64,000 bases of DNA, taken from NCBI RefSeq assembly GCF_004216695.1, contig NZ_SGXC01000001.1, positions 1,054,001-1,118,000 of the forward strand, in the 5' to 3' direction. Of the stretch, positions 3,116 to 60,073 are shown piece after piece. Origin of the DNA: Pigmentiphaga kullae (GTDB taxonomy: Bacteria; Pseudomonadota; Gammaproteobacteria; Burkholderiales; Burkholderiaceae_B). The translations under genes were made by a program, and so were the position numbers. The notes below the pieces were generated by a model. The model was not told the DNA's origin. It ran no database searches and saw only the letters and a program-made list of their open reading frames with translations. Every line of letters starts with the position of its first letter. Position 1 is the stretch's first letter.

Positions 3116-4693
3116 CTACGTGACCGGCCTGGATGCCGCCAGCTCCCTGAGCCCGGCCTTCGATATCTTGCCCACCCCGATGCGGGGGAAATCCTCGACG
3201 AATACGACCTCGCGCGGCACCTTGTATTTCGCCAGCTCCCGCCGGCATACCTCGATGATGGCGTCGGCCAGCCCCGTGACGCCGCCATCCGCCGGCAGCC
3301 GCACGAAGGCGATGGGAACTTCGCCGTAGGCGGCATCGGGCCGGCCGACCACGGCCACTTCGCTCACCCGGGCCACGGTCCGGATGACCCGCTCTATCTC
3401 GGCCGCCGAGACGCCTTCGCCGCCGACCTTGAGCAAGTCCTTGGCGCGGTCGCCGAACTGGATCGAGCCGTCTTCATGCAGCAGCACGCTGTCGCCCGTC
3501 CTGAAGTAGCCGTCATCGTCGAAGGCGTCCCGCGTCGCTTGGGCATTGCCGAAGTACTCGGCGAAAAGGGTGACCCCCCGTATGCCCCGGACAAGAAGAT
3601 TGCCACGTTCGCCGGGCCGGCAGTCGCGGCCCCGGTCATCGACGATGCGCACGCCGTAGCCGGCGGATGGGCGGCCGATGGCGCCCGGCCGCGGGGGCGA
3701 CCACGGATCGGTGACGATGCCCTGCGCGACCATTTCGGTCATGCCCCACGCCCCCATCATCCTCATGCCGAAATGGGCCTCGTGCTCGGGCAGCCACAGC
3801 GCATTGCACCATTGCCGGAAGGCGTGGCCGGGGGGAACGGGCATGCCCGCCAGCACGTTGGCGCTGAAGATGACGTGAGACCCCACGGTGCTGCGATGCT
3901 CGAGCGCGACCGGCCAATAGCGGCTGGCCGAGAAGCGGGGCTGCAGGACGATGCTGGCGCCGGCCCAGAGCGCGGGAAAGACTGACCACGACAGGCCGAC
4001 CACGTGGAACAGCGGCAGGAAGACCTGAAAGACGTCGTCGCCACGCAGGCCTTGCTGCATGGCGCCGAGCCTGCCGGCCCACAGGGCGTTGGCATGCGTC
4101 CACGCCACGCCCTTGGGGCGCGAGGTGGTCCCGCTCGTAAACAGCACGGACAGCGGCGCGGACGCGTCGGGCGGGCGTTGCGGCGCGGGCGTGGCCAGCA
4201 GCGCGGCATGACGCTCGTCCGGCCGCGGCACGGTGGTGGCGTCGGCGGGCTGTCCGGCATCGTCGTCGGTGATCGCCAGCCATTTCAAACCGGGGCAATG
4301 GCCGCGGATCTTTTCCGCGAATTTCGGATGTGTGACGGCCCCGCAGGCTTGCGTCAGTTCGGCGAAATAGGCCAGTTCCGGTCCGGCGGCCATGGCATTG
4401 GTGGGAACACAGACGGCGCCCAGATGCGCGCAGGCGAAATACGTCAGCAGGAATTCCGGGCAGTTCTCCAGATGCATCAGGACGCGGTCGCCGGCGCGCA
4501 CGCCGCGCCTGTCCAGTCCGCCCGCCAGCGAGGCGACCTGTCCGGCGAACTCGGCGTAGGTCCAGGTGCGAGATACGCCGGGCTCAGGCGCCCAGGTCAG
4601 GAACGGGCGCCCGGGCCGCTCGGCCGCCTTCCTGCGGAGCAACGCGGCCAGATCGTGGCCGGTGAATTGAAGCAGAGCGTCCTGGTGTGTCAT
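3116..4693 (-). CDS. AMP-dependent acyl/aryl-CoA ligase
   Basis: A 525-residue ANL-superfamily ligase. The phosphate-binding loop LFTSGTTSRPKG (residues 184-195), an adenine-pocket GAWGMTE motif, the hinge region GDRAKDLLKVGGE and the C-terminal catalytic lysine in IGVGKISK are all present. It should adenylate a carboxylic acid and transfer it to CoA. Overall it resembles CaiC-type and aromatic-acid ligases. The start at 4693 overlaps the stop of the HCCA-isomerase-like gene by four bases (ATGA), which indicates translational coupling. The substrate is unknown; the neighbours point to an aromatic or alicyclic acid. Confidence 0.85.
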   Translation of the reverse strand: MTHQDALLQFTGHDLAALLRRKAAERPGRPFLTWAPEPGVSRTWTYAEFAGQVASLAGGLDRRGVRAGDRVLMHLENCPEFLLTYFACAHLGAVCVPTNAMAAGPELAYFAELTQACGAVTHPKFAEKIRGHCPGLKWLAITDDDAGQPADATTVPRPDERHAALLATPAPQRPPDASAPLSVLFTSGTTSRPKGVAWTHANALWAGRLGAMQQGLRGDDVFQVFLPLFHVVGLSWSVFPALWAGASIVLQPRFSASRYWPVALEHRSTVGSHVIFSANVLAGMPVPPGHAFRQWCNALWLPEHEAHFGMRMMGAWGMTEMVAQGIVTDPWSPPRPGAIGRPSAGYGVRIVDDRGRDCRPGERGNLLVRGIRGVTLFAEYFGNAQATRDAFDDDGYFRTGDSVLLHEDGSIQFGDRAKDLLKVGGEGVSAAEIERVIRTVARVSEVAVVGRPDAAYGEVPIAFVRLPADGGVTGLADAIIEVCRRELAKYKVPREVVFVEDFPRIGVGKISKAGLRELAASRPVT

Positions 4694-5313
4694 GGCGGGG
4701 GATCCCACGAACCGTGCTCGAGCCAATGCTCGAGCATCCATAGGCGGTCCACCCCCCAGAGGGGCTGGCCGTCGACGATGAAGAAGGGCACGCCGAACAC
4801 CCCCTGGGCGACAGCGTGGTCCACCTCTTCCCTGAGAGCGGCCTTGATGCCTGGAGATTGCATGCCTTGGCCCAGCGCCTCGGTATCCACGCCCAGCGAT
4901 GCCGCTTCCTCCAGGACCGCTTCGGCGGTGGAGATGTCTTCCCCCTTGGCCCAAAGCCTGGCGCAGATGGCGCGTGCAAAGAGCGCCGCCCGCGCGGAAT
5001 CGTGCCGCTTCAGCCAGAGGAAGGCGCGCAGCGCGCGGATGGGCGATACGTCGGGATGGCGCAGTTCGCATATCGGCACGCCCAGCAGACGCGCCATGCG
5101 GTGCTTGTCCAGCCGGGAATAGTCGGCCTTGAGCGGTGTCGCGGGAACCGGCTTCAGTCCCATCACCTGCAGTACCGTGACGCTCAGAAGCACCGGCCGC
5201 CAGTCCACCTGCCTGCCATGGCGCGCCGCCAGTGTCTCGATTTGGGTCGAAGCCAGGTAGCCGTATGGAGAGATCGGATCGAAGTAGAAGGCGATGGGAG
5301 ACGTCCGATCCAT
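4690..5313 (-). CDS. 2-hydroxychromene-2-carboxylate isomerase-like (DsbA family)
   Basis: A 207-residue thioredoxin-fold protein of the HCCA-isomerase/kappa-GST group. The N-terminal FYFDPISPYGYL has Ser15 at the place of the catalytic serine in NahD-type isomerases. The C-terminal half has the VFGVPFFIVDGQPLWG motif with the cis-proline. NahD uses glutathione to isomerise a naphthalene-pathway intermediate. The protein sits between a Bug receptor (2-bp gap) and a CoA ligase (4-bp overlap), so a step in aromatic acid breakdown is likely. The exact reaction cannot be read. Confidence 0.8.
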   Translation of the reverse strand: MDRTSPIAFYFDPISPYGYLASTQIETLAARHGRQVDWRPVLLSVTVLQVMGLKPVPATPLKADYSRLDKHRMARLLGVPICELRHPDVSPIRALRAFLWLKRHDSARAALFARAICARLWAKGEDISTAEAVLEEAASLGVDTEALGQGMQSPGIKAALREEVDHAVAQGVFGVPFFIVDGQPLWGVDRLWMLEHWLEHGSWDPPP

Positions 5314-5315
5314 GC

Positions 5316-6281
5316 CTACAACTTCTCGATGCCGGCCGCCTTCACGATGCCGCTCCATCGCGTCAGTTCGCTGGAGATCAGACGCGAGAATTCCGCGGCC
5401 GTGCTGGTTTCCGGGTCCAACCCCATGGCGGCATACCGCTGGCGCACGTCCGGCAGCGCGATGACGCGGTGCACTTCGCGCTGGAGGCGTTCCACGATGG
5501 CCGGCGGCGTGCCGGCGGGTGCCAGCAATCCCTGCCACAATTGCACGTCCAGGCCCTTCAGTCCCAGGCTGGTAAAGGTCGGCACGCCCGGAAACGAGGG
5601 ATGTTCGGCATGCGAGGTGATCGCTACCGCCTTGAGCTTGCCTGTCTTCAGGCCGGCGCCGATGGAGATCGAGTCGGAAATGGTTGCCAGCACGTCGTTG
5701 GCGATGGCGGCATTGACCGCGTCGGTGCTGCCCTTGTAAAGGATTTCCTGGAACCGGGAACCCGCCTGCAGGTTGAGCTGTTCGCCGATCAGGCGAAACG
5801 GCGCGGCCGCGGACGAATAATTGGCTTTTTCGGGGTGCGCCTTCGCATAGGCCAGCAGCTCGGGCAGGCTCTGGGCGGGCCCGCTCTTGTTGACGGCCAC
5901 CAGCACCGGCAGCGACGCGACCAGCGAGATCGGGGAGAAATCCTTGGCGGCGTCGTACTTCACTTCCTTGTACAACGCGGGATTGATCGCGAGCGCGCCG
6001 CTGGCGCCCAGCAGGATGGTGTAACCGTCGGGCGCTGCGCGAGCCACATACTCGGTCGCGATCATCGAGGCGGCGCCTGGGCGGTTCTCGACCACCACTT
6101 GCACCCCCAGTCCTTCGGACATTTTCTGGGCCAGCACGCGGGCCAGGATGTCGCTGCCTCCGCCCGCGGTATAGCCCACCACGAGGCGTACCGGCCGCGT
6201 GGGGTAGTCGTTTCCGAAGGCGGGACCGTGTACGAATGCGGCGAGCACGACGGCCCCCGCCGACAGGCGTTTGCAAGGCAT
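5316..6281 (-). CDS. Bug family solute-binding protein
   Basis: A 321-residue periplasmic binding protein of the tripartite tricarboxylate transporter (Bug/TctC) family. A cleavable signal peptide ends near residue 23 (AFGNDYP). Mature-protein landmarks are RPVRLVVGYTAGGGSDILAR, VENRPGAA and the PDGYTILLG segment that contacts ligand carboxylates. No TctA/TctB membrane genes are nearby, which is common for the many orphan Bug receptors of Bordetella relatives. It probably binds a carboxylated substrate for the linked CoA ligase pathway. Confidence 0.9.
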   Translation of the reverse strand: MPCKRLSAGAVVLAAFVHGPAFGNDYPTRPVRLVVGYTAGGGSDILARVLAQKMSEGLGVQVVVENRPGAASMIATEYVARAAPDGYTILLGASGALAINPALYKEVKYDAAKDFSPISLVASLPVLVAVNKSGPAQSLPELLAYAKAHPEKANYSSAAAPFRLIGEQLNLQAGSRFQEILYKGSTDAVNAAIANDVLATISDSISIGAGLKTGKLKAVAITSHAEHPSFPGVPTFTSLGLKGLDVQLWQGLLAPAGTPPAIVERLQREVHRVIALPDVRQRYAAMGLDPETSTAAEFSRLISSELTRWSGIVKAAGIEKL

Positions 6282-6387: not shown

Positions 6388-6903
6388 CTACATCTTCAAC
6401 GCCCGGCCCTGCAGCTTGTCGACGACGCGGAACAGCGTCGCGCGTTCCTGCGCCGACAGGTCCGCCAGCAGGTCTTCCTGGAATTCCAGGGCCACCGGCA
6501 CGATGGCCCAGTAGACCTCTTCACCCGCATCGGTCAGGTCCAGGAAGGCTTCGCGCCTGTCGTTTTCGTTGGGCCGCCGCTGGATCAGTCCGGCCGCTTC
6601 GAGATCGGCGATCGCGCGCGACACCATGACCTTGGTCATGCGGGTCTTGGCGCAGATGTCGCGCGCCGTCATCGCGCCGTGTTCCTCTTGCGTGCCGCGC
6701 TTTTCTCCCAGGAAGGAAATCACGCGCCAGCGCGGACCGTCGATGCCGAAGCGTTCGGAGTACGCCGCATAGCTGCGCGCGAAGCGGTCGGCGACCAGGC
6801 TGGACAGCATGTTCAGCCGGTAGGGCAGGAAGGCGTCGAGGCGCAGGGAGTGGTGTTCGCCCGCCGGGCGAGGGGAAGCGGATGTCGATCGCTTGATGGC
6901 CAT
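6388..6903 (-). CDS. MarR family transcriptional regulator
   Basis: A MarR-type regulator of 171 residues from the ATG at 6903; an in-frame start at 6981 would add 26 residues and neither has a strong ribosome site. The winged helix spans the MTARDICAKTRMTKVMVSRA recognition region, followed by the NENDRREAFLDLTDAG wing. It is divergent from the MhpA-like hydroxylase gene, with two near-identical palindromes between the genes. By analogy with MarR regulators of aromatic pathways it probably represses the plus-strand operon until a phenolic or CoA ligand binds. Confidence 0.88.
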   Translation of the reverse strand: MAIKRSTSASPRPAGEHHSLRLDAFLPYRLNMLSSLVADRFARSYAAYSERFGIDGPRWRVISFLGEKRGTQEEHGAMTARDICAKTRMTKVMVSRAIADLEAAGLIQRRPNENDRREAFLDLTDAGEEVYWAIVPVALEFQEDLLADLSAQERATLFRVVDKLQGRALKM

Positions 6904-7029
6904 GGGGACGAAGCTGGAGTCTGGGTGCCGAAGGGCGAATTCTAGCCCTCTTGCCGGGGCGGACGCAGGCACGGTACGCATCGGCCTGCGGGTTTTGCCT
7001 AGTCGAGGGACTGTCGAAAATCGCTTGAC

Positions 7030-7081: not shown

Positions 7082-7126
7082 TTGCGGCGGATGGACCGCA
7101 TATCGATTCTTGATGGAGTGTCCAGC

Positions 7127-8818
7127 ATGGCATCGACCGAAGGCATATCGGGCAGCGGCGCGCGATATGACTCCCTTTACTTCGACTATGTGCATCATCC
7201 CTTCGAGCCTCCCGCGGAAATGCGCGGGGAAGCGCCGGTGCACCAGGTGGTCGTGGCCGGCGCCGGACCCGTCGGCCTGACCGTGGCGCTGGAGCTTGCC
7301 CGGCGCGGCATCGAGGTGGTGGTGCTGGAGGAGGACGACACCGTCAACCGGGGCAGCCGGGCGGTGGGTACCGCGCGGCGCAGCCTGGAGATCTTCGAGC
7401 GCATCGGCGCGGGCACGCGTTTCGTCGAGACCGGCGTGTCGTGGAAGGGTGGCCGCAGTTATTACCGGGACAAGCTGGTGCTGGATTTCCAGGTGCAGCA
7501 GGATCCCCGGCTCAAGCATCCGCCCATGGTGTCGCTGGCGCAGTGCCACGTCGAGCAGTACCTGTACGAGGCGCTGCGCGCCTATCCCAACGTGTCTCTG
7601 CGCTGGTCGTCGCGCGTGGAGCAGGTCGAGCAGGACGGCGAACGGGTGACCGCCCGGGTCCATACGCCGTCCGGATCCTACGCGCTGCATGCGCGGTGGC
7701 TGGTGGCCTGCGACGGCGGCCGCAGCGCGGTGCGTCGCTCGCTGGGCAAGGAACTGCGGGGCAGCGTGTACGAAGGCCGCTACCTGATCGTCGACATCCA
7801 GATGCGCAGCAAGGAGCCGCCCGGCCGGCGCGTCTGGTTCGATGCGCCGGCGTTCCCCGGGGCGACCATCATCATGCACAAGCAGCCTTTCGACATCTGG
7901 CGCATCGACTATCAGTTGCTGCCCGAAGAGGACCTGGAACAGGAGATCCAGCCCCAGCGGGTGCGCCAGCGGGTGACGGAGTTCCTGACGTCGATAGGCG
8001 AGACGGCCGATTGGGAGATCGACTGGATCAGCCCGTACCGCGCGCACAGCCTGACCCTGGACGACTACCGCGACGGCCGGGTGCTGTTCGCCGGCGACGC
8101 CGCGCACCTGGTGCCCATCTTCGGCGCGCGGGGCATGAACGGCGGGGTGGACGACGCGCACAACCTGGGTTGGAAGCTGGCCGGCGTGGCGGCGGGGCAT
8201 GCCACGCCGGCCTTGCTGGATACCTATTCGATCGAACGCGTGGACGCGGCCAGGCAGAACATGGCGCTGGCGGAGAAAAGCACGCGCTTCATGACGCCCC
8301 CCACGCGCGGGCATGCCGTCATGCAGGAAGCGGTGCTGTCGTTGGCGGTCAGCGAGCCCTTCGTGCGCGAGCTGATCAATCCGCGCCAGGTGACGGAACT
8401 GCGCATGACCGGGTCGGCGCTGCGCCTGCCCGACGACGGTTCGTTCGGCCACGGCCCCGCGCCCGGCGCGGTCTGCCCGAACCTGCCGTGCGGCGCCTCG
8501 GCCGGCGGGCCGGTCTTCCTGCACGACAGGCTGGGCCGGGATTTCACGCTGCTGGTGTTCGGCGACGGCGGATTGGCCGGCAAGTCGCGGCGCCTGGACG
8601 CGCTGCGGATCTCGATGGAGATGCCGTTCGGCCTGGATGCCGTCGCGGTCGACGATGTCGAGGCCGCCGGGGCGTTCGACGCGAGGCCGGGTACGGCCTA
8701 TCTCGTCCGGCCCGATGGACACGTGATGGCGCGGTGGCGCGCCTGGGAACCCGAAACGGTGCTGCCGTGCCTCGCGCGCGCGGTGCAGGGTAAAGAGGAG
8801 ACCGTACATGCTGGTTGA
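7127..8818 (+). CDS. MhpA/PheA-like FAD-dependent aromatic hydroxylase
   Basis: A 563-residue class A flavoprotein monooxygenase. The FAD dinucleotide-binding motif GAGPVG is at residues 45-50, the DG motif is in LVACDGGRSAVRR, the second FAD motif is in GDAAHLVPIFGARGMNGGVD, and a C-terminal thioredoxin-like domain follows. This layout fits 3-(3-hydroxyphenyl)propionate or resorcinol/phenol hydroxylases. The start at 7127 has GGAG (7115-7118) at good spacing; an upstream TTG frame overlaps the operator and is less likely. It is the first gene of the operon and its end overlaps the DUF2783 gene by 11 bp. Confidence 0.88.
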   Translation: MASTEGISGSGARYDSLYFDYVHHPFEPPAEMRGEAPVHQVVVAGAGPVGLTVALELARRGIEVVVLEEDDTVNRGSRAVGTARRSLEIFERIGAGTRFVETGVSWKGGRSYYRDKLVLDFQVQQDPRLKHPPMVSLAQCHVEQYLYEALRAYPNVSLRWSSRVEQVEQDGERVTARVHTPSGSYALHARWLVACDGGRSAVRRSLGKELRGSVYEGRYLIVDIQMRSKEPPGRRVWFDAPAFPGATIIMHKQPFDIWRIDYQLLPEEDLEQEIQPQRVRQRVTEFLTSIGETADWEIDWISPYRAHSLTLDDYRDGRVLFAGDAAHLVPIFGARGMNGGVDDAHNLGWKLAGVAAGHATPALLDTYSIERVDAARQNMALAEKSTRFMTPPTRGHAVMQEAVLSLAVSEPFVRELINPRQVTELRMTGSALRLPDDGSFGHGPAPGAVCPNLPCGASAGGPVFLHDRLGRDFTLLVFGDGGLAGKSRRLDALRISMEMPFGLDAVAVDDVEAAGAFDARPGTAYLVRPDGHVMARWRAWEPETVLPCLARAVQGKEETVHAG

Positions 8819-9017
8819 ACAGACATTGCCCGCTGGGCTGCTTGAACGCAATTGGGAGGCGCTGGCCGTCGCGTTGAACGAGGCCGGTCCGGACAAGGAG
8901 GCGGTCTTCCTGGCCAAGGTCGCCCTGGCGCTGTCGTCCATGCTGCCCGATCCGGGCCGGCTGGCGCAGGTCATCGAGGTCGCGCTGCGCGACCTGCGGC
9001 ACGGGGAGCGGGCATGA
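8808..9017 (+). CDS. DUF2783 small protein
   Basis: A 69-residue, mostly helical acidic protein that matches the DUF2783 pattern: a short N-terminal helix, an EAVFLAKVALALSSMLPD core and a C-terminal IEVALRDL helix. DUF2783 genes are often found directly behind MhpA-like FAD hydroxylases, as here (11-bp overlap), which suggests a partner or accessory role for the hydroxylase. No catalytic residues are evident. Confidence 0.75.
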   Translation: MLVEQTLPAGLLERNWEALAVALNEAGPDKEAVFLAKVALALSSMLPDPGRLAQVIEVALRDLRHGERA

Positions 9018-9094
9018 GCGCGCCCGCCCGGCCGCCCGAAGGGCGCGCGACCTCCCCGGGGGAGGATGTCGCGCAGCGACAGGAGGGCAGTCCA

Positions 9095-10300
9095 GTGAGC
9101 ACGGGCGACAAACGCATCGCCATCGCCGGCGCCGGCATAGGCGGCCTGGCGGCCGGGCTGGCCCTGCTCAAGCAGGGCTTCGACGTGGACATCTACGAGC
9201 AGGCGGCCGAGCTGGGCGAGGTGGGCGCCGGGGTGCAGATCAGCCCCAACGGCACGCGGCTGCTCCAGGCCTGGGGGCTGGGCGACGCCATGTTCGAGCT
9301 GGGCACCCAGACCAAGGGCAAGGAGATCCGCGTCTGGAACACCGCGGACGCCAACCGCTACCTGGAACTGGGCGCCGCGTCGGTCTCGAAGTACGGCGCG
9401 CCCTACCTGACGTTCCACCGCGCCGACCTGCATGCGCTGCTGCTGGATGCCGTGCGCAGGGAAAAGCGCGACGCCATTCACCTGAACGCCGCCTTCGCGT
9501 CGCTGGAGACGGCGGACGGTGGGGCGCAGATGCGCCTGGCCTCGGGCCGGACCGTCCGGGCCGACGTGCTGATCGGCGCCGACGGCGTCCATTCCAAGGT
9601 GCGCCAGTCGCTGTTCGGCGCGGACCGGCCGCGCTTCACGGGCTGCATGGCCTGGCGCGGCCTGATCGAGGCGGACCGCCTGCCGGCATCGATCAACCGC
9701 ACGGGCGGCGTGTCGTGGCTGGGGCCGACCGCGCACGTGCTGACCTATCCGATCCGCAAGGGGCGGATGCTGAATTTCATCGGCATGGTGGACCGCGCGG
9801 ACTGGACGGTCGAGTCTTGGAACGCGCGCGGCACGATAGAGGAATGCCTGAGGGATTTCCAGGGCTGGCACGAGGACGTGATCGCCATGATCGAACGCAT
9901 CGAGGTGCCCTACAAGTGGGCCCTGATCGTGCGCGACACCCTGCCCGTCTGGGTGCGGGGGCACGTGGCCCTGCTGGGCGATGCCTGCCACAGCACGCTG
10001 CCCTTCATGGCCCAGGGCGCCAACATGGCGCTGGAAGACGCCATGGTGCTGGGCCGTTGCCTGCGGCGCACGCCCGGCGACCTCCCCGCCGCGCTGGCCT
10101 CGTACGAACGCATGCGGGTCGAGCGGACCACGAGGATCGTGAACGAATCGGCGGCCCAGATCACGCGCGTGCATGCGCCCGTGCTGGCCGAGGCCGGCAG
10201 CGCGCGGGACCACATCCAGCGCGAGTGGGAGCCGCACCGCGTCGAGGACCGCTACGACTGGGTCTATGGCTATGACGCCATCGAACAGCCTTTCGCCTAG
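9095..10300 (+). CDS. Salicylate/3-hydroxybenzoate hydroxylase-like FAD monooxygenase
   Basis: A 401-residue class A FAD monooxygenase. GAGIGG is at residues 12-17, the DG motif is in IGADGVHSKVR, and GDACHSTLPFMAQGANMALED closes the FAD site. It resembles salicylate 1-hydroxylase, 3-hydroxybenzoate 6-hydroxylase and 6-hydroxynicotinate 3-monooxygenase. The GTG at 9095 is preceded by a consensus AGGAGG (9081-9086), so it is preferred over the in-frame ATG at 9014 that overlaps the DUF2783 stop. It should hydroxylate, possibly decarboxylate, an aromatic ring using NAD(P)H and O2. It is the second monooxygenase of the operon. Confidence 0.85.
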   Translation: MSTGDKRIAIAGAGIGGLAAGLALLKQGFDVDIYEQAAELGEVGAGVQISPNGTRLLQAWGLGDAMFELGTQTKGKEIRVWNTADANRYLELGAASVSKYGAPYLTFHRADLHALLLDAVRREKRDAIHLNAAFASLETADGGAQMRLASGRTVRADVLIGADGVHSKVRQSLFGADRPRFTGCMAWRGLIEADRLPASINRTGGVSWLGPTAHVLTYPIRKGRMLNFIGMVDRADWTVESWNARGTIEECLRDFQGWHEDVIAMIERIEVPYKWALIVRDTLPVWVRGHVALLGDACHSTLPFMAQGANMALEDAMVLGRCLRRTPGDLPAALASYERMRVERTTRIVNESAAQITRVHAPVLAEAGSARDHIQREWEPHRVEDRYDWVYGYDAIEQPFA

Positions 10301-10310
10301 GAGCCCCGCC

Positions 10311-10922
10311 ATGTCTTCTTGCGCCGCCGACGACCTTGCCATACGAAGCCTGCGGCAGCGATGGGCCTTCCATCGCGACCAGGGCGATTTCGCCGGCATG
10401 GCCGGCTGCTTCCATCCGGAGGCGACGGCCAGTATCTCGTGGTTCAACGGCAAGGTCGCGGACCTGGTGCCGCTGCTGGTGGCCAGCGACGCGGCGCGCA
10501 AGCCCGGCGAACACGGTAAGCACTGGGTCGGGAACTGCCGCGTGGACCAGCGCGGCGACCGGGCCTTGCTGGAGTCCGACATGGCCATCCTGATCCGCGA
10601 ATACATCGACGGACAGTTGTTCGACTACACCGGCCACTGCCGCTTCCTCGACCAGGTGGAACGGCGCGCGGGCAGGTGGGGCATCCTGCACTGGACGGCG
10701 ATCTTCGACAAGGACCGGCTCGATCCGGCGCAGGGCGAGGCGCCCGCGTGGCTGCGCGAGGTCGACCTGGCCACCCCGGATGCCGGGCTGGCCTTCATGC
10801 GCCTGCGGCAACGCAGGAAGGGCCGCGACGTGCCCGCCTCCACGGTGGTGGGCGGCGGCGAGGCCGAGCGGCAATTGCGGCGCGGTGCCTGGGCCTGGCT
10901 GGAGCGGCGCGATGGCCAGTGA
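10311..10922 (+). CDS. NTF2/SnoaL-like protein
   Basis: A 203-residue protein with a SnoaL_4-type cone fold. The helix LRQRWAFHRDQGDFAGMAGCFHPEA and the later sheet residues HWVGNCRVDQRGDRALLESD and GRWGILHWTAIFDKDRL are typical of this group, which includes ring-hydroxylating dioxygenase beta-like and isomerase/lyase folds. It starts 10 bp after the FAD monooxygenase stop behind a GGAG. A role as isomerase, dehydratase or small-ligand-binding helper in the pathway is possible; the reaction is not known. Confidence 0.75.
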   Translation: MSSCAADDLAIRSLRQRWAFHRDQGDFAGMAGCFHPEATASISWFNGKVADLVPLLVASDAARKPGEHGKHWVGNCRVDQRGDRALLESDMAILIREYIDGQLFDYTGHCRFLDQVERRAGRWGILHWTAIFDKDRLDPAQGEAPAWLREVDLATPDAGLAFMRLRQRRKGRDVPASTVVGGGEAERQLRRGAWAWLERRDGQ

Positions 10923-10953: not shown

Positions 10954-12018
10954 ATGAATCCTTCCACTCTCTGGTACACCCGCTGCCCGGTGCCGACGGC
11001 GTTCGGCATCGCCGTCGAACGGGGTTTCCTGGATGCCGAACTGGCGCGCGACGGCATCGTGGCGCGGTCGCTCGCATCGAGCACCGACAACCAGGTCAGG
11101 CAGTCGCACTTCCATCATTCCCAGCCCAACTCGTTCCGCCACGGCGGCAACGGACCGCCGCTGGTGACCCGTTCGCGCGGCGGCCGGGTCAAGCTGATCG
11201 GGCTGTCGTGGAACGACAGCATCAAGCCCATGCTGGTCATGCCCGACAGCGGCATCGCCTCGGTGCGCGCGCTTGCCGGCAGGAAGGTGTCGCTGCCGAT
11301 ACGCGCCGGCGATTCCATCGATTTCTGGAAGGCCTCGTCGCTGCGCGGCACCGAGCTCGCGCTGGCGCAGGAGGGCATGACCATGGACGACGTGGCGATG
11401 ACCCCGGTCTCGACCAACCGGACGTTCATGGACGGGGCGACGGCCTCCACCGCCCAGACGGCCACCCTCTGGGGCGCGCACTGCATGCTGGGCCATCAGC
11501 GCGAGGAAGCCTTCGCGCTGGTCCGCGGCGAGGTGGACGCGCTGTACAGCCAGGGCGCGATCGCCGCCGTGGTGATGGGGTTCACCGGCGCGGTCGCCAT
11601 CGCCGATGCGGCCTCCAGCCCCGACCTGGCCGGCCGCGTGAACAACGACGCGCCGCTGGCCTTGACCGTGAGCGAGGACCTGCTGGCCGAACAGCCGGAA
11701 CTGGTGGCGCGCTGCGTGGCCGCCGTCCTGCGCGCGGCAGCCTGGGCGTCGGCCAACGAGCGCGAGGCCAAGCGCGTCATCGCCGCCGACACCGGCCTGC
11801 CCGAAGAACTCGTGGACGCCGCCTTCCCGCAAGACGTGCATCGCCAGCTCGAGGTCGACCTGCGGCCCGAGTGGGTGGAGGCGCTGCGGGTGCAGCACGA
11901 CCACCTCCTGCGGCACGGCTTCCTGGCCGCGCCCGTCGCCTTCGAGGATTTCGTCGACCACGGTCCGCTGCGCCGCGCCCGGGAAATACTGGCCGGCGAA
12001 GCGGCCGTGCCCCTGTGA
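10954..12018 (+). CDS. DszB-like arylsulfinate desulfinase / SsuA-fold protein
   Basis: A 354-residue periplasmic-binding-protein fold without a signal peptide. It aligns along its length with DszB (2'-hydroxybiphenyl-2-sulfinate desulfinase): YTRCPVPTA matches the segment around DszB Cys27, and the HFHHSQPNSFRHGG segment matches that around His60 and Arg70. Here these residues are C11, H52 and R62, with the His-Arg spacing of ten kept. The shared VDALYS motif follows. A C-S bond-cleaving desulfinase is therefore plausible, though automated tools would call it an ABC substrate-binding protein. An alternative start at 10912 adds 14 residues. Confidence 0.7.
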   Translation: MNPSTLWYTRCPVPTAFGIAVERGFLDAELARDGIVARSLASSTDNQVRQSHFHHSQPNSFRHGGNGPPLVTRSRGGRVKLIGLSWNDSIKPMLVMPDSGIASVRALAGRKVSLPIRAGDSIDFWKASSLRGTELALAQEGMTMDDVAMTPVSTNRTFMDGATASTAQTATLWGAHCMLGHQREEAFALVRGEVDALYSQGAIAAVVMGFTGAVAIADAASSPDLAGRVNNDAPLALTVSEDLLAEQPELVARCVAAVLRAAAWASANEREAKRVIAADTGLPEELVDAAFPQDVHRQLEVDLRPEWVEALRVQHDHLLRHGFLAAPVAFEDFVDHGPLRRAREILAGEAAVPL

Positions 12019-12038: not shown

Positions 12039-12560
12039 ATGCCTGAAGAATTCACCCGCTTCCTGACCCTGTTCGACCGGCTGGTCCGCTACTCCGACGA
12101 CTGGGTGGCGCGCATGGATGCCGGCAAGATGGACTGGGCGCCGATCGAGAACGACAGCACCCGCTTCGGCACGCGGGTGTCGCGCATCACGGTGCGCAGC
12201 CTGCTGATCCATACGGTGCTGGCCGAACGCAACTGGGTGCGCGCCATCCCGGCCTGCGAATCCGGGGGCGTCATTCCCCTGCCCAACGATCCCGCCGCCG
12301 CGGCCCGTTTCGACGGCACGGACCTGCGCGCGACGGCGCTCGCCCTGCACGAGGAAAATCTCGCGGCGCTGGGCCGCTACACGCCGGCCGAGCTTGGCAA
12401 AAAGGTCCACTTCGTCGGCCGGGAATGGTCAGGCATGGGGCTGCTGTGGGGCATGTACGCCCATCGCGCCTTCCACGTGGGCAACATCGATATCTACTTG
12501 CGGCAGAGCGACGTGGTGGGGCCCGAGTTCTTCGAGTTTAATCCCGCCATCATGGCCTGA
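12039..12560 (+). CDS. DinB-like metal-dependent protein
   Basis: A 173-residue four-helix protein of the DinB/YfiT superfamily. The three metal-ligand histidines are in place: H58 in LLIHTVLAERNW, then H142 and H146 in YAHRAFHVGNIDIYLR. Family members include thiol-dependent maleylpyruvate isomerases and metal-dependent transferases; most are uncharacterised. AAAGGAG (12026-12032) supports the start. Its place in an aromatic operon would suit an isomerase acting on a ring-cleavage product, but this is inference. Confidence 0.75.
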   Translation: MPEEFTRFLTLFDRLVRYSDDWVARMDAGKMDWAPIENDSTRFGTRVSRITVRSLLIHTVLAERNWVRAIPACESGGVIPLPNDPAAAARFDGTDLRATALALHEENLAALGRYTPAELGKKVHFVGREWSGMGLLWGMYAHRAFHVGNIDIYLRQSDVVGPEFFEFNPAIMA

Positions 12561-12595: not shown

Positions 12596-13171
12596 ATGAC
12601 GACTCCCCCCCTACGCATCGCGGGCCTGTGCGGCAGCCTGCGCAAAGCCTCCTACAACCGGCAGGCCCTTGAGGCCGCGGGCAGCCTCATGCCGGCCGGC
12701 ATGGAACTGTCGGTGCTCGACATCCGGGACTTTCCCATGTTCGACGCCGACGTCCTGGCCGCCGGCATGCCCGACGCGGTCCGGAAGGCGCGCGATGCCG
12801 TGCGCGGCGCCGATGCGGTGCTGATCGCCAGCCCGGAATACAACTTCTCGGTGTCCGGCGTCCTGAAGAACGCGATCGACTGGATCTCGCGGGGCGACGA
12901 CCAGCCTTTCGCCGGCAAGCCGGTCGCCATCCTCAGCGCCACCCAGGGGCCGCTGGGCGGCGCGCGTTCGCAGTACGACCTGCGCAAGATCATGGTCTTC
13001 CTGGATGCGCTGGTGCTGAACAAGCCCGAGATATTCATCGGCATGGCGCCGGCCAAGTTCGATGCGGCCGGCGCGCTGACCGACGCGCCCACCCGGGAAA
13101 TCCTGGGCCGGCAGATGGCGGCCCTGGAGAAATTCGTGCAGTTCGTGCGGCGCGGACGAGCCCAGCCCTGA
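12596..13171 (+). CDS. NAD(P)H-dependent FMN reductase
   Basis: A 191-residue flavodoxin-fold reductase of the SsuE/ChrR/ArsH group. The FMN phosphate loop is GSLRKASYNRQ near the N-terminus, and the signature SPEYNFSVSGVLKNAIDW surrounds the isoalloxazine site. It reduces FMN, quinones or similar acceptors with NAD(P)H. In sulfonate and Dsz-type systems such a reductase feeds FMNH2 to a monooxygenase. Here both monooxygenases look FAD-dependent and self-reducing, so its partner is unclear; a quinone-reducing role is an alternative. Confidence 0.85.
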   Translation: MTTPPLRIAGLCGSLRKASYNRQALEAAGSLMPAGMELSVLDIRDFPMFDADVLAAGMPDAVRKARDAVRGADAVLIASPEYNFSVSGVLKNAIDWISRGDDQPFAGKPVAILSATQGPLGGARSQYDLRKIMVFLDALVLNKPEIFIGMAPAKFDAAGALTDAPTREILGRQMAALEKFVQFVRRGRAQP

Positions 13172-13213
13172 GGGGCGAACGGCGTCCAGACATATTCCAA
13201 CCGGAGAATGGCG

Positions 13214-14200
13214 ATGTTCGGATTGATGAAGCGGTTGCTGCAGATCGGGGGCATTGCGATGGTGGGCCTGGCCTCCCCCGGCGTTCATGCACAGGGGTTC
13301 CCGGCCAAGCCTTTGCGGTGGATCGTCGGCTACCCAGCCGGCGGGGGCAGCGACAACGCGGTGCGGATATTGGCGGCCAGGCTGGCCGAGAAACTCGGGC
13401 AGCCCGTCATCGTCGAGAACCACCCCGGCGCGGCCACCATCGTCGCGGCCGAAACGGCGGCGAAATCGCCACCGGACGGCCATACGCTGTTCTCGGTCGA
13501 CAACGGCACGGTCGTCTTCAACCCCCTGCTCTACAAGAAGCTGCCCTACGACCCGTCGCGCGACTTCGCGCCGGTGGCCCTGTACGGCAAGTTTCCGCTG
13601 CTGCTGGTGGTGAATCCGCAGGTGGTGCCGGCGGACTCGGTCGCATCGCTGGTGCGCCTGGCCAAGGCCGCGGGAGGAGCCATGGGCTATGCCTCGCCCG
13701 GCCTGGGCAGTCCGCAGCACCTGGCGGGCGAACTGTTCAAGGAAATGACCGGCGCGCCGCTGCTGCACGTACCCTACAAGGGCACCGCGCCGCTGACCCA
13801 GGACCTGCTGGGCGGCCACATCGGCGTCTCCTTCATAGGCGTGCCCAGCGGCATGCGGCAGGTCCAGGCGGGCAAGCTGCGCGCGCTGGGCGTGGCCGAG
13901 GCGGCCCGCCTGCCCTCGTTGCCGGAGATCCCGACGCTGGCCGAGGCCGGGGCGGGAGACATCGTGGCCTATGCCTGGCAGGGCGTGGTCGTGCCGGCGG
14001 GAACCCCCGCGGCCACCGTGGATAAGTTGTCGGCCGCCCTGCAAGCCATCGTGAAGAACCCGGATGTTCAGACGCGCCTGCGCGAGATCGGCGTCGAGCC
14101 GCTGGAGGGCGGGAAGGCCGAGATGGCGGCCTTGACCGCCGGCGACCTGAAGCGCTGGGGGGACGTGATCCGGAAGCGGGGCATCACGCTGGAGCAGTAG
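13214..14200 (+). CDS. Bug family solute-binding protein
   Basis: A 328-residue periplasmic Bug/TctC receptor, last gene of the plus-strand operon. A signal peptide ends at about residue 26 (VHAQGFP). Mature landmarks are LRWIVGYPAGGGSDNAVR, VENHPGAATI and PPDGHTLFSVDNG. The ATG at 13214 is chosen because CCGGAG (13201-13206) is at proper spacing from it and too close to the ATG at 13208. It is a paralogue of the minus-strand Bug protein at 5316-6281. It presumably captures the operon's carboxylate substrate. Confidence 0.9.
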   Translation: MFGLMKRLLQIGGIAMVGLASPGVHAQGFPAKPLRWIVGYPAGGGSDNAVRILAARLAEKLGQPVIVENHPGAATIVAAETAAKSPPDGHTLFSVDNGTVVFNPLLYKKLPYDPSRDFAPVALYGKFPLLLVVNPQVVPADSVASLVRLAKAAGGAMGYASPGLGSPQHLAGELFKEMTGAPLLHVPYKGTAPLTQDLLGGHIGVSFIGVPSGMRQVQAGKLRALGVAEAARLPSLPEIPTLAEAGAGDIVAYAWQGVVVPAGTPAATVDKLSAALQAIVKNPDVQTRLREIGVEPLEGGKAEMAALTAGDLKRWGDVIRKRGITLEQ

Positions 14201-14328: not shown

Positions 14329-14396
14329 ATTTGATGATGCTCCGTTCCTCGCATGCGCCCAGCCGCTGCCACGGGCCGGGCTCCTGGAGGAAGACC

Positions 14397-15488
14397 ATGT
14401 TTCTGAAGAACACCTGGTACGTCGCCTGTACCCCCGATGAAATCGCCGAAAAGCCGCTGGGTCGCCAGATCTGCGGTGAACGCATGGTCTTCTACCGGGG
14501 CCAGGACGGCAAGGTGTCCGCGCTGGAAGACTTCTGCCCCCATCGCGGCGCGCCGTTGTCGCTCGGTTTCATCGACAAGGGCGAACTGGTGTGTGGCTAT
14601 CACGGCCTGCGTATGAATCCGGACGGCACCTGCGCCGGTATGACCGGGCAGCGCGTGCGCGCTTTCCCCAGCATCCGCAGCTACCCGGCCGTGGAACGCT
14701 ACGGCTTCATCTGGGTATGGCCGGGCGACGCCGAACTGGCCGATCCCGCCAGGATCCATCACCTGGAGTGGGCCGAAAGCCCGGACTGGGCCTACGGCGG
14801 CGGGCTGTACCACATCCATTGCGACTACCGCCTCATGATCGACAACCTCATGGACCTCACCCATGAGACCTACGTCCACGCCAGCAGCATCGGCCAGGCC
14901 GAGATCGAAGAATCGGCGCCCTCCACCAAGACCATCGGCGACGAGGTCGTGACCAGCCGCCACATGGAGAACATCAAGGCGCCCCCCTTCTGGGCCGCCG
15001 CGCTGCGCGGCAACGGCCTGGCCGACGACGTGCCGTGCGACCGCTGGCAGATCTGCCGCTTCACGCCGCCCAGCCACGTGCTGATCGAAGTGGGCGTGGC
15101 GCACGCCGGCAAGGGTGGCTACCACGCGCCGGCCGAGTCCAAGGCCTCCAGCATCGTGGTCGACTTCATCACCCCCGAGACCGAAACCTCGATCTGGTAC
15201 TTCTGGGGCATGGCCCGCAACTTCAAGCCCAACGACGAACAGCTCACGGCCACCATCCGCGAAGGCCAGGGCAAGATCTTCGGCGAGGACCTGGACATGC
15301 TGGAGGCGCAGCAGCGCAACCTGACCGAGAACCCGGGCCGCAAGATCCTGAAGCTCAACATCGATTCGGGCGGCGTGCAGTCGCGCGTCGTGCTCGATCG
15401 CCTGCTGGCCGCGGAAGCCGCCGAGCGGGCCAGCCGCGTCGCGGCATCCGCCGAAGCGGCAACGGCGCAGGCCGCCGCGGCGGGTTGA
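14397..15488 (+). CDS. vanA: VanA-type Rieske oxygenase (vanillate O-demethylase oxygenase subunit)
   Basis: A 363-residue Rieske non-haem iron oxygenase. The [2Fe-2S] ligands are C47-x-H49 and C66-x2-H69. The mononuclear iron facial triad lies in DNLMDLTHETYVH. The N-terminal FLKNTWYVACTPDEI and overall length match VanA, which demethylates vanillate to protocatechuate and formaldehyde. TGGAGGA (14385-14391) supports the start. The partner reductase vanB is not next to it: a convergent toxin-antitoxin pair begins 7 bp downstream. Other methoxybenzoate demethylases remain possible. Confidence 0.82.
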   Translation: MFLKNTWYVACTPDEIAEKPLGRQICGERMVFYRGQDGKVSALEDFCPHRGAPLSLGFIDKGELVCGYHGLRMNPDGTCAGMTGQRVRAFPSIRSYPAVERYGFIWVWPGDAELADPARIHHLEWAESPDWAYGGGLYHIHCDYRLMIDNLMDLTHETYVHASSIGQAEIEESAPSTKTIGDEVVTSRHMENIKAPPFWAAALRGNGLADDVPCDRWQICRFTPPSHVLIEVGVAHAGKGGYHAPAESKASSIVVDFITPETETSIWYFWGMARNFKPNDEQLTATIREGQGKIFGEDLDMLEAQQRNLTENPGRKILKLNIDSGGVQSRVVLDRLLAAEAAERASRVAASAEAATAQAAAAG

Positions 15489-16250: not shown

Positions 16251-16258
16251 ACAAAAAA
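16251..16258. repeat. ICE attachment site, left copy
   Basis: ACAAAAAA, identical to 58675-58682, lies about 290 bp beyond the last Trb-operon gene and 35 bp from the outermost start of the toxin frame. Eight bases alone are weak evidence; the position outside the outermost conjugation gene and the matching copy outside the integrase gene carry the call. Confidence 0.65.
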
Positions 16259-56238: not shown

Positions 56239-57303
56239 CTACTCGTTGTCGGTCTTGCGCTGCTCGATCTGCAACCGCGCCCGTTGCGTTGCTTGTTGCA
56301 GCCGCTCCACCAGCACGCCCCTCGGCGGCAAGGCGGTCAGGTACTCGGCGACGTGGATGCCCGACTTGTCCAACTCCAGCAATTCGATCTGCTCGCGCTT
56401 CTTGCCGGTGCAAAGGATGATCCCCAGCGGCGAGGCTTCCTCCGGCTCCCGTTCGTGCTTGTCCAGCCAGCGAAGATAAAGCTCCATCTGTCCCTTGAAA
56501 GCTGCCTTGAACTCGCCGACCTTCAACTCCACTGCCACCAGCCGCCGCAGCTTGCGGTTGTAAAACAGCAGGTCGAGGTGGAAATCCTCGCAGTCGATCT
56601 GGATGCGCTTCTGCCGGGCCACGAAGCTGAAACCCGCGCCCAGCTCCAACAAGAACGACTCCATTTCGCGGATGATCGCCGCCTCCAAGTCGCCTTCCTG
56701 CCAAGTGTCCCGCAGCCCCAGGAAGTCGAGGATGTAGGGGTCGCGCATGACCAGGGCGGGCGACATTCGCTGCGCATCGCGCATCTTCGCCAACTCCTGT
56801 GCGATCGTCTCGCCCGGCTTTTGAGACAGCGCCGTGCGCTCGTACAACATCGAGTCGATGCGCTCGCGCAGCGTCCGCACGCTCCAGCGTTCGGTGCTCG
56901 CCATCTGTGCGTAGTAGTCCCGCTGGAGCGGGTCTTTCAGCGGGATCAGGGCGATGAAGTGCGTCCAGCTCAATTCTCGTATCAGTGATACGAGAATCTG
57001 CTCGTCGGGGAAGGTGGCCGCGAACTGCACCATGCGGCGCAGGTTCTGCTCGGCAAAGCTGCCGCCGTACTCCTTCACCAACTGCGCCGCCAGGGTGGGC
57101 AGGACTTCCTTGCCATAAGCGCCCCGGCGCCCGTCCAAGACCTGCGTGCGGATGCGCTGGCCGATGCGCCAATAGAGCATCGTCAGCTCGCTATTCACCG
57201 TCGAGGCGGCGCGCTTGCGCGCCGCCTCGATCAGTGCCCGAATGTCGCCCAGCAGCGCCGAAGGCGCTGTGGACGATGCTGCGGATGACCGGCGCGTGTT
57301 CAT
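56239..57303 (-). CDS. DUF1016 (YhcG-like) PD-(D/E)xK nuclease
   Basis: A 354-residue YhcG-type protein: an N-terminal domain (YWRIGQRIRTQVLDGRRGAY, LVKEYGGSFAEQNLRRMVQF and the LSWTHFIALIPLKDPLQRDYY region) and a C-terminal nuclease fold with DFHLDLLFYNRKLRRLVAVE and LKVGEFKAAFKGQ, holding the D...ExK active site. It overlaps the integrase stop by four bases and so is expressed with it. It may act in recombination, defence or restriction escape; its role is not established. Confidence 0.85.
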   Translation of the reverse strand: MNTRRSSAASSTAPSALLGDIRALIEAARKRAASTVNSELTMLYWRIGQRIRTQVLDGRRGAYGKEVLPTLAAQLVKEYGGSFAEQNLRRMVQFAATFPDEQILVSLIRELSWTHFIALIPLKDPLQRDYYAQMASTERWSVRTLRERIDSMLYERTALSQKPGETIAQELAKMRDAQRMSPALVMRDPYILDFLGLRDTWQEGDLEAAIIREMESFLLELGAGFSFVARQKRIQIDCEDFHLDLLFYNRKLRRLVAVELKVGEFKAAFKGQMELYLRWLDKHEREPEEASPLGIILCTGKKREQIELLELDKSGIHVAEYLTALPPRGVLVERLQQATQRARLQIEQRKTDNE

Positions 57304-58499
57304 GCCGCCGCCTCCGCAAGCTGGCGTGCGCCCGTGATGGCCTGGCGCCGGCTGGCCACCAGTTCGGCCGCATCGCGCACCGGCTTGTCCTCGGTGTGGA
57401 CGTAGTGCATGAACATCGCTACGGTCTTGTGGCCCGTCAGCTTCATGCCCACTTTGGTCGGCACGCCCGAATTGGCAATGTCGGTCGTCGAGCGATGGCG
57501 GATGCCGTGCGTGCCGACGTGCGGGACGCCGGCGGCCTTGAGCACCCGGCACCAGCCGCCATAGTGCTCGCCAAAGGTCAGGTGCTTGGCCGGGTCGTTC
57601 GGCGATGGCAGGACGTAGGGGCAGCCCTCCCGGCGCGGCGCCGTCGAAAGCAGCCGATAGGCTTCCTCGCTCATGGGCTTGGAAATGCCGCCGACCTTGC
57701 TGTCGGGCCACACCACGCGCCGGTTCTCGAAGTCCAGCCAGCTCCATTCGAGCGGGCAGATTTCGGAGCGCCGGGCGGCGAACTCGAATTGCAGCCGGAT
57801 CGCCAGCGGGATGACGTAGTTCTCCAGCCCCTCCGCCTCCAGCTTCTCCAACTGGCGGAAGATCCGCACCATTTCCTCGTCCACGATGAGCCGGGTTTCC
57901 TTGCCCGGCGGGTACATGGGGACGTGGCGGCACGGGTTCGTGCCGTCCGGGCGGTAGCCCCACACTTCGGCCAGGTTGAACATCTTGCGCAGCACGCCGA
58001 AGGTCTTGTTCGCCTCGGTCGGCTTGTAGGCCAGTTTCTCCATCAGCCCGGCAATGTCGGGCCGCTTCACGTCATGCACCTTCTTGCGGCCCAGCAGCGG
58101 GATGATGTTGCGGTCTATGACGCCCTGATAGCCGTCCTGCGTGCTGGGCTTGTTGCGCTTCTTGGAGTAGTCCTCCATGAACTTCTTGCACAACTCGGCC
58201 ATCGTGGGCGCCTTGCGCGCCTCGGCCTTGGCGCCGCCGGGGTCGCCGCCCCGGCGAACCTCGGCCAGCCAGTCCTGTGCCTTGACTCGTGCCTGTTCGA
58301 CGGTCAGCTCCCCGTACAGCCCCAGCGAGGGCTTGCGGGGCTGGCCGGAGTTCGTGCGGTACTGGAGCATGAACACCCGGCGGCCGGTCGGGGTAATCTT
58401 GCACAGGAAGCCGGGCACCACGGTATCCCGCAGTTCAACATCCTTGGCCTGGGGTTGGGCCGACTCCACGGCGGTCTTGGTGAGCTTGATCTTTGCCAT
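57300..58499 (-). CDS. int: Tyrosine integrase of the ICE
   Basis: A 399-residue tyrosine recombinase. The arm-binding/DUF4102-like N-terminus is followed by a core-binding domain and the catalytic domain with R243 (AARRSE), H331 and R334 (THGIRHR), H357 (LTGHKT) and Y366 (FMHYVH). GAGGAGT precedes the start at 58499. It sits 175 bp inside the right attachment site, the layout of Tn4371-type elements. Confidence 0.95.
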   Translation of the reverse strand: MAKIKLTKTAVESAQPQAKDVELRDTVVPGFLCKITPTGRRVFMLQYRTNSGQPRKPSLGLYGELTVEQARVKAQDWLAEVRRGGDPGGAKAEARKAPTMAELCKKFMEDYSKKRNKPSTQDGYQGVIDRNIIPLLGRKKVHDVKRPDIAGLMEKLAYKPTEANKTFGVLRKMFNLAEVWGYRPDGTNPCRHVPMYPPGKETRLIVDEEMVRIFRQLEKLEAEGLENYVIPLAIRLQFEFAARRSEICPLEWSWLDFENRRVVWPDSKVGGISKPMSEEAYRLLSTAPRREGCPYVLPSPNDPAKHLTFGEHYGGWCRVLKAAGVPHVGTHGIRHRSTTDIANSGVPTKVGMKLTGHKTVAMFMHYVHTEDKPVRDAAELVASRRQAITGARQLAEAAA

Positions 58500-58672
58500 G
58501 ATGACTCCTCGGAACAACCCGGATTCCAGGAGCCAGATAGGAGCGGCGCGAGGGAAAACCGGGTCAAGTTTCAGAAAGCACCGGCATATGATGGACGCGC
58601 GTAAGTTATTGATAAACCTGCTGTATCTAGCTACGGCGCAGTCCAGCGAACTACCGGGCTGGAGTCATCGTG

Positions 58673-58744: not shown

Positions 58745-60073
58745 CTATTCCCCCCTACCCTGCAACGCCAGCGGATACTCGCCCCGGATCCGCCTGACCG
58801 CGTCCTGCACATCGGTCCAGGCCGGCTGGCCGGTGAAGGACTCGCGCATGAACTGCACCACGGCCGTGACCTGCGCATCGTTCAGCGCATACGCGTAGCC
58901 GGGCATGTGGCCGCCCCGCGGGTTGCCCGCATCGTGCTGGGTGCCGTTCAGGACGTAGCGGATCACGTTGTCGGGCTGGTCCAGGTTCAGCGAGGTGGCC
59001 AGCCACAGCGGCGGCTGGGCGCCGAACAGGTCGGGTCCGCCGGGACCGGGATGGTGGCAGGCCGCGCACGCGTTGGCGTAGATGCGGGCGCCCAGCGTGT
59101 CGGTGGTGGCCACGGCGGCCTGCGCCGCCGCCTCGCGCTGCGGCGGCGTGGGGCCGGTCTTGCCCTGGCCGGCCCCGGCCATCTGGCTGGCGATGTAGGT
59201 GGCCAGCGCACGGGTGTCGGACTCGGCGATCTGCGAGGTGCCGACGCGTACAACCGGGGTCATGGATGCGCCGGCCGCGCCATGCTGGTCCGAGTAGCCG
59301 GCGCGCAGGTAGTCGAACAGGGCCTGTTCGGTCCACGGTATCGGCGCCTTGGAGGACCCATTGAGCGCCGGGGCGATCCAGCCTTCGGCTTCGCCGCCGC
59401 CCAGGTAGTCCTTGCCGGTCTTTTCGGCGCCCAGCGCGTTGCGGGGCGTATGGCAGGCGCTGCAGTGCCCCAGCGCCACCGCGAGGTATTGCCCGCGGTT
59501 CCAGGCCTCCGATTCCGAGGCCACCTTGGCGACCGGATCGCGATCCAGGAACAGCAGGTTCCACCCGGCCATCAGCGCGCGCTGGTTGAACGGGAACGGC
59601 AGGCGGGTGGCCTGCGGCTCGTTGCGCACCGGCGGCTGGCTCATCATGTAGGCGTACAGGCTGCGCATGTCCTCGTCGCTCATCTTGGTGAACGAGGTGT
59701 AGGGGAAGGCCGGGTAGAGGTGCGTGCCGTCGCGCGCGACGCCGCGCCGCATGGCGCGTTCGAAGGCCTCGAACGACCACGCGCCTATGCCGCTCTCGGT
59801 GTCGGGTGTGATGTTGGTCGAGACGATGACGCCGAAAGGGGTCTCCATGTGGAAGCCGCCCGCGTTGACCGCCCCGCCGGGCGCGGTGTGGCAGACGACG
59901 CACATGCTGGCGGAGGCGACTTCCTGGCCGCGCCGGACCTGTTCCTCGGGGAACTGCTTGGGGTCGATCGACGCGGTCGGGATCTCGGGTTCATGCGCGA
60001 ACAGGGCGATGCCGGCCACGACGACGGCCAGCAGGATGACGATGGTCAGCGACCACTTGGCGGCGCGGCTCAT
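58745..60073 (-). CDS. Tri-haem cytochrome c subunit
   Basis: A 442-residue protein with one N-terminal membrane anchor (about 8-26) and three haem c motifs: CVVCH (58-62), CSACH (204-208) and CAACH (336-340). It matches the cytochrome partners of membrane-bound alcohol/aldehyde and of molybdenum hydroxylase dehydrogenases, and would carry electrons from the molybdopterin subunit to the respiratory chain. Its start overlaps the upstream stop by one base. Confidence 0.92.
   Translation of the reverse strand: MSRAAKWSLTIVILLAVVVAGIALFAHEPEIPTASIDPKQFPEEQVRRGQEVASASMCVVCHTAPGGAVNAGGFHMETPFGVIVSTNITPDTESGIGAWSFEAFERAMRRGVARDGTHLYPAFPYTSFTKMSDEDMRSLYAYMMSQPPVRNEPQATRLPFPFNQRALMAGWNLLFLDRDPVAKVASESEAWNRGQYLAVALGHCSACHTPRNALGAEKTGKDYLGGGEAEGWIAPALNGSSKAPIPWTEQALFDYLRAGYSDQHGAAGASMTPVVRVGTSQIAESDTRALATYIASQMAGAGQGKTGPTPPQREAAAQAAVATTDTLGARIYANACAACHHPGPGGPDLFGAQPPLWLATSLNLDQPDNVIRYVLNGTQHDAGNPRGGHMPGYAYALNDAQVTAVVQFMRESFTGQPAWTDVQDAVRRIRGEYPLALQGRGE

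Follow-up and report, generated by a model that had tools for sequence, protein, structure and literature searches.

Gene organisation of the operon

The window, a stretch of 64,000 nucleotides of Pigmentiphaga kullae DNA that covers C1:1054001–1118000 of genome G000, carries the gene of a DszB-like protein of 354 residues (DszBL; 10954–12018, forward strand), which is preceded by a SnoaL gene and followed by a DinB gene on the same strand. Past the divergent gene of a MarR-family regulator (6388–6981, reverse strand), the gene order on the forward strand is FMO1, a class-A FAD monooxygenase (7082–8818); a small protein of 69 residues (8808–9017); FMO2, also a class-A FAD monooxygenase (9014–10300, start codon inferred); a SnoaL-like protein (10311–10922); DszBL; a DinB-superfamily protein (12039–12560); an NADPH-dependent FMN reductase family protein (FMN_red, 12596–13171); a TctC-type receptor (13208–14200); and a Rieske oxygenase of the VanA_C type (14331–15488). 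The two FAD monooxygenases and the flavin reductase that the sequence-only reading had placed beside DszBL are thus all present (FMO1, FMO2 and FMN_red). On the reverse strand lie the genes of a second TctC receptor (5316–6281), a DSBA/2-hydroxychromene-2-carboxylate isomerase-like protein (4690–5271) and an AMP-binding (acyl-CoA ligase-like) protein (3116–4687).

FMO1 scored 616.9 bits with the PRK08132 model (cut-off 416), its nearest solved relative is PnpA, and translation may in fact begin further downstream than the ORF does. The nearest solved relatives of FMO2 are tropone 2-monooxygenase, 6-hydroxynicotinate 3-monooxygenase, decarboxylative vanillate 1-hydroxylase and a 4-hydroxybenzoate decarboxylase entry. 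The SnoaL-like protein is weakly related by sequence to PEP2 (E 1.4e-4) and more weakly to gallate decarboxylase (E 0.26); its model, built from a four-row alignment, has a pLDDT of 69.1, and the structural matches to the same two proteins, with an rmsd near 11, are hints only. The nearest solved relative of the Rieske oxygenase is dicamba O-demethylase. FMO1, FMO2, the Rieske oxygenase and the SnoaL-like protein suggest phenolic or methoxylated aromatic acids as substrates, and none of them names the compound. Among the genes of the operon, neither a sulfur-specific gene, nor dszA or dszC, nor a ring-cleavage dioxygenase gene was recognised.

The DinB protein just passes the DinB_2 cut-off (25.0 against 24.8 bits); H58, H142 and H146 are invariant among the four rows aligned, and a plasmid search with this protein gave no match. 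The 69-residue protein has no Pfam match and has a 44%-identical counterpart after FMO1 at the alphaproteobacterial locus L008. Annotated small hypothetical proteins also trail FMO1 relatives on Leisingera and Agrobacterium plasmids, where they were matched by position. An 81-base repeat at the start of FMO2 (9020–9100) has five matches in the genome including itself (84–100% identity); it is absent from the FMO2 start at loci L005, L006, L007 and L040, and a peptide resembling its product precedes the DszBL gene of locus L038.

Downstream of the operon, an integrative element has been inserted at positions 16258–58675 of the window; its junction shows an overlap of 7–8 bases. This stretch of ca. 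42 kb contains trb-type conjugation genes, as recognised by eye, and an integrase gene (57300–58517). It is missing at this place in the relatives L007 and L040, and slightly wider gaps were seen in L005 and L006. Beyond it, cytochrome c and molybdenum hydroxylase genes (58745–62715) were found, which adjoin the Rieske gene directly, in the opposite direction, in L005 and L040.

Active-site residues, phylogeny and predicted fold of DszBL

The ATG of the DszBL gene is preceded by a ribosome-binding site that appears plausible by eye. The protein contains the motif WYTRCPVPTA, in which C11 is located, and VDALYS at residues 194–199. The segment SHFHHSQPNSFRHGGNGPP holds H52 and R62, ten residues apart, followed by GGNGPP, and the RxGG motif reads RHGG. 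Hence, the coordinates, the reading frame, CPVP, the ten-residue His-Arg spacing, GGxxPP and VDALYS were all found as first described. In a phmmer search of the PDB, the top match was DszB (2de2, E 1.6e-20), with residues 4–333 of the 354 matching residues 20–351 of 2de2, nearly the full length; a DszB mutant structure followed at E 5.4e-19, as against only 0.02 for SsuA, and no other desulfinase of known structure was among the matches of this search. The proposed equivalence of C27, H60 and R70 of DszB with C11, H52 and R62 was reproduced both by phmmer and by a MAFFT alignment, which also paired G72 and G73 with G64 and G65; rows from L018, L019, L025 and L026 were left out of that alignment, since their genes were included as L035, L037, L039 and L036. 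The overall identity with DszB is 28%, and S25 of DszB is replaced by a threonine. The published account of DszB describes the C27S variant as inactive, a ca. 17-fold loss of activity in H60Q, an RXGG motif with R70 that is conserved in DszB homologues, R70 being assumed to be structural, and a mechanism in which the cysteine supplies a proton (PMC6100217).

The conservation of these residues was evaluated in 53 DszB-like rows, among which are near-duplicates and one gene counted twice (L029_g and L038_x), and in eight binding proteins classed as such by annotation or by neighbouring permease genes. The cysteine was present in 52 of 53 DszB-like rows, the histidine in 52 of 53 and the arginine in all 53, while none of the eight binding proteins has the histidine or the arginine at the H52 and R62 columns. 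Two of the eight have a cysteine at the C11 column, which is probably that of their lipobox. The divergent row L039_div has an aspartate in place of the catalytic histidine. In L097, a serine replaces the catalytic cysteine and the match contains an internal TGA; this copy may be a decaying gene. At the column of DszB S25, 49 of the 53 family rows have threonine and four have serine. When the 49 family rows outside the clade of the window protein were considered, only ten columns were conserved at 97% or more (C11, P12, H52, R62, G64, G65, G76, L107, G192 and D195); since three of these are the putative catalytic residues, their match with DszB goes beyond chance. Their retention makes catalysis by DszBL likely and leaves the leaving group unnamed.

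A tree with binding proteins, in line with one of the checks initially proposed, placed DszBL on the DszB side. Binding proteins and DszB-like proteins were split with support of 100/100 in a tree of 43 rows and 100/99 in a tree of 55 rows, the latter omitting L038_x, L042_x, L085_x, L039_div, L046_g and SBP_L051_c; long branches, including those of binding proteins and DszB, were flagged. In the larger tree, the two true DszB rows fell outside a group of the other 46 that includes the window protein, on a weak branch (86/65). The window protein clusters with those of Burkholderiales 67-32, Pseudolabrys and Rhizobiales 64-17 (100/99).

An AlphaFold2 model of DszBL was obtained with a mean pLDDT of 91.0. 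When its overall fold was compared by Foldseek, the closest structures were the DszB crystals 2de3 and 2de2 (E 1.1e-21 to 4.6e-21; query-normalised TM 0.74–0.78), and the predicted fold matched the best SsuA (E 2.6e-14) and THI5 (E 1.1e-12) less strongly. The weakest inner stretch of the model is residues 151–180. Because M178 aligns with F203 of DszB, this stretch covers the counterpart of the DszB loop 187–204, which is described as becoming ordered on substrate binding (PMC6100217).

On the grounds of the sequence match, the residue conservation, the split in the tree and the fold match, DszBL is a member of the DszB superfamily. As claimed at first, it is a relative of DszB with a complete active-site set. 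It could be argued that DszBL is not an enzyme and instead binds a ligand, either as a cytosolic binding or sensor protein or as the binding protein of a transporter: Pfam NMT1 matches it with 28.8 bits, above the cut-off of 20.5, and structures of the SsuA type follow DszB in the fold comparison. The NCBIfam SsuA_fam model, however, reached only 65.4 bits, below its cut-off of 163.5, and the catalytic set is conserved, while the binding proteins have neither the histidine nor the arginine. Moreover, no signal sequence or lipobox was seen by eye in the protein, and no ABC permease or ATPase gene was found among the genes examined at 3–16 kb. A transport binding protein was rejected on the basis of the model cut-off, the residues, the tree, the fold and the neighbouring genes, and a non-enzymatic role of any kind is very unlikely; DszBL is very probably an enzyme and not an ABC binding protein.

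DszB proper, the enzyme of the 4S pathway, would share the kinship and the catalytic set. The identity of 28% speaks against this assignment, as does the position of the true DszB rows outside the group of the window protein, albeit on the weak branch mentioned above. No dszA or dszC adjoins the DszBL gene; the DszA-like matches lie elsewhere in the genome (C1:605–608 kb, 42% over residues 5–297, and a stretch of 73 residues with stops at C1:275 kb, 58%), and the DszC-like matches reach 23–28%. True DszB was rejected on identity and gene context, and this reading is hardly credible.

Distribution and gene neighbourhoods of the sister family

DszBL belongs to a broad sister family of DszB, whose proteins start with WYTRCPxPT and which, with the same catalytic set, occurs in Alphaproteobacteria and Betaproteobacteria and in a Streptomyces. 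The family is rather uncommon. With a threshold of E 1e-60, members turned up in 7 of the 397 genomes examined from the order to which G428 belongs, in 3 of 149 genomes of its family and in 7 of 398 genomes of a phylum sample; with E 1e-20, they turned up in 5 of 369 genomes of a class sample. Each search included G000 or G428 itself among its matches. Within Pigmentiphaga, 5 of 11 genomes (G000, G002, G003, G005 and G007) have a copy at 97% or more, the match in G002 being that of locus L007. Of 40 plasmid relatives listed, 26 are nameless, 13 bear the name 'ABC transporter substrate-binding protein' and one is called 'hypothetical protein'. The remark that ordinary annotation hides such proteins was thus borne out, 13 of the 14 named relatives carrying the label of a transport binding protein.

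The alphaproteobacterial loci L008 and L009 retain the order FMO1 (68% identity), SnoaL (63–64%), DszBL (72%) and DinB (66–68%); FMO2 (61%) and a TctC receptor (41–42%) are encoded nearby on the other strand. Neither the Rieske oxygenase nor the FMN reductase had a match among the called genes of these two loci, the calls coming from a simple in-house script that missed some genes. Since they are shared with L008 and L009, the two flavin monooxygenases, SnoaL, DszBL and DinB form the conserved core.

An LLM-type or acyl-CoA-dehydrogenase-type (DszA/DszC-type) gene was present within 6 kb at 22 of the 42 loci outside the window clade, a count that is partly circular, since eight of the positives (L013, L051, L052 and L056–L060) supplied reference sequences; without these, it is 14 of 34. 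The positives include a true dsz locus (L059) and one locus that counts only through a gene at 5.9 kb (L010), and the loci are not independent, L094–L097 coming from one family and L033, L042 and L085 being orthologues. Both types of gene occur together at 8 of the 42 loci, as in Paracoccus (L013), and 20 of the 42 have no such neighbour. By comparison, neither type was found within 6 kb at any of the six window-clade loci or in any of 20 control stretches, which were hand-picked, not random, places in 15 of the genomes. On Allorhizobium, Sinorhizobium and Mesorhizobium plasmids, a peptide-type ABC importer is encoded together with acyl-CoA-dehydrogenase-type or LLM genes, and sulfite oxidase or rhodanese genes occur in two of them. 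On a Variovorax plasmid, sulfurtransferase, cysteine dioxygenase and metC genes lie near the DszBL relative. The Cys-His-Arg set is identical in family members with and without such sulfur-type neighbours.

At L038, the genes of TctC, FMO2 (55%) and MarR are followed by those of RidA, DszBL, an Amidohydro_2 protein, homogentisate 1,2-dioxygenase and molybdenum hydroxylase. The DszBL of this locus (row L029_g) falls in a different branch from the window protein in the 55-row tree. That DszBL lies beside an FMO2-type gene in two branches suggests that aromatic catabolism makes use of this fold. The Pigmentiphaga genome has its own shortened remnant of an L038-type DszBL gene (L034, 6806–7207, reverse strand), which adjoins RidA, MarR and an FMO2 relative. 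The firm result is a wide sister family of DszB whose members are often named transport binding proteins and of which one branch is located in an aromatic operon.

Putative reaction and comparison with known systems

The leading reading, to which we give a probability of roughly 0.45, is that DszBL is a DszB-type lyase for the desulfination of an arylsulfinate within an operon for aromatic-acid catabolism. DszBL would be a cytosolic, cofactor-free lyase. By analogy with DszB, the anionic group of an aromatic sulfinate would be held by R62, H52 and the GG loop, C11 would donate a proton to the ring carbon that carries the sulfinate, and SO2 would then depart as sulfite. The flavin monooxygenases would act either ahead of this reaction or following it, and its product may be processed by the DinB protein and the isomerase-like protein. 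The sulfinate is favoured by the kinship with DszB, by the neighbours in other branches and by the other decarboxylation candidates in the operon; because FMO2 and, weakly, SnoaL are such candidates, a further decarboxylase is less needed. Against it stand the lack of a recognised sulfur gene in the window operon and the setting of L038, which needs no sulfur. The low identity with DszB (28%) and the missing LLM-type or acyl-CoA-dehydrogenase-type neighbours at all six window-clade loci and at 20 of the 42 others also count against it.

The main alternative is a decarboxylation that relies on the same cysteine. With the same fold and the same Cys-proton chemistry, DszBL would release CO2 or another electrofuge, as a cofactor-free aromatic decarboxylase derived from the DszB family; the Cys-His-Arg set would be equally compatible with anionic leaving groups other than sulfinate, among them carboxylate. 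The window clade and L038 lie in aromatic clusters in which no sulfur gene was recognised, and Amidohydro_2 genes, from a family that includes decarboxylases, were found near L011, L012, L033 (with its orthologues L042 and L085) and L038. Set against this are the two decarboxylation candidates already in the operon and the fact that the Cys-His-Arg set is the same as in members beside DszA/DszC-type genes. We regard decarboxylation as possible and, on balance, unlikely. Improbable by comparison is a hydrolase or lyase that depends on the cysteine as nucleophile and attacks a product of ring cleavage. Such an activity would suit the DinB and isomerase-like proteins encoded near DszBL in the window and the homogentisate dioxygenase beside the L038 relative, but none of the window operon genes was recognised as a ring-cleavage dioxygenase, and no precedent for such an activity is known to us in the DszB superfamily.

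The initial proposal of a desulfinase-type enzyme in a new aromatic route thus stands as regards kinship and the catalytic set. Its sulfinate substrate is weakened, given that the operon has no recognised sulfur-specific gene, that members without sulfur-type neighbours have these same residues and that a relative is found in the homogentisate-type cluster of L038. An undescribed desulfination route in the window operon is possible. One version would be independent of the 4S pathway and would combine a PnpA-type monooxygenase with DszBL, without DszA or DszC: a sulfonyl phenol, e.g. a diaryl sulfone, would be ipso-hydroxylated by the monooxygenase to a quinone and an arylsulfinate, from which DszBL would strip the sulfinate. 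This version is doubtful. Cells with the nonylphenol monooxygenase NmoA are described as converting bisphenol S to hydroquinone, the sulfur-bearing product being unnamed in that description (PMC7074866); the monooxygenase step of the route thus has a partial precedent. A word search of titles and the beginnings of abstracts in an open-access collection found no report of an operon of this kind that encodes a DszB-like protein. No dszB is reported for a sulfolane degrader (PMC6395730) or for Gordonia alkanivorans 135 (PMC11852219).

DszB is described as a bottleneck of biodesulfurisation (PMC6100217). The sister family, if active, would be a source of new enzymes that cleave C-S (or C-C) bonds, and the chemistry of the window operon, if active, may feed on an aromatic compound rather than scavenge sulfur.

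Among known systems, DszB is the one that DszBL resembles in predicted fold, in the Cys-His-Arg set and in CPVP, RxGG and VDALYS. It differs from DszB in its sequence, with an identity of 28% and threonine for S25, and in its location outside a dszABC operon, its partners being class-A FAD monooxygenases. SsuA/TauA sulfonate-binding proteins share Pfam NMT1 and have a fold related to that predicted for DszBL; unlike DszBL, the binding proteins compared here do not have the histidine and the arginine. SsuA/TauA proteins are exported and are encoded alongside an ABC permease and an ATPase. The pyrimidine synthase THI5 is an enzyme whose fold is related to that predicted for DszBL (best E 1.1e-12), although the identity is only 13–14% and its PLP-based chemistry is different. 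BdsA of Gordonia terrae C-6 (KC831580) is described as a benzothiophene desulfinase whose gene is accompanied by two monooxygenase genes and ABC transporter genes; the operon has desulfurising activity and bears little homology to the dsz enzymes (PMC3868597). Judging from this description, BdsA may belong to the same sister family as DszBL.
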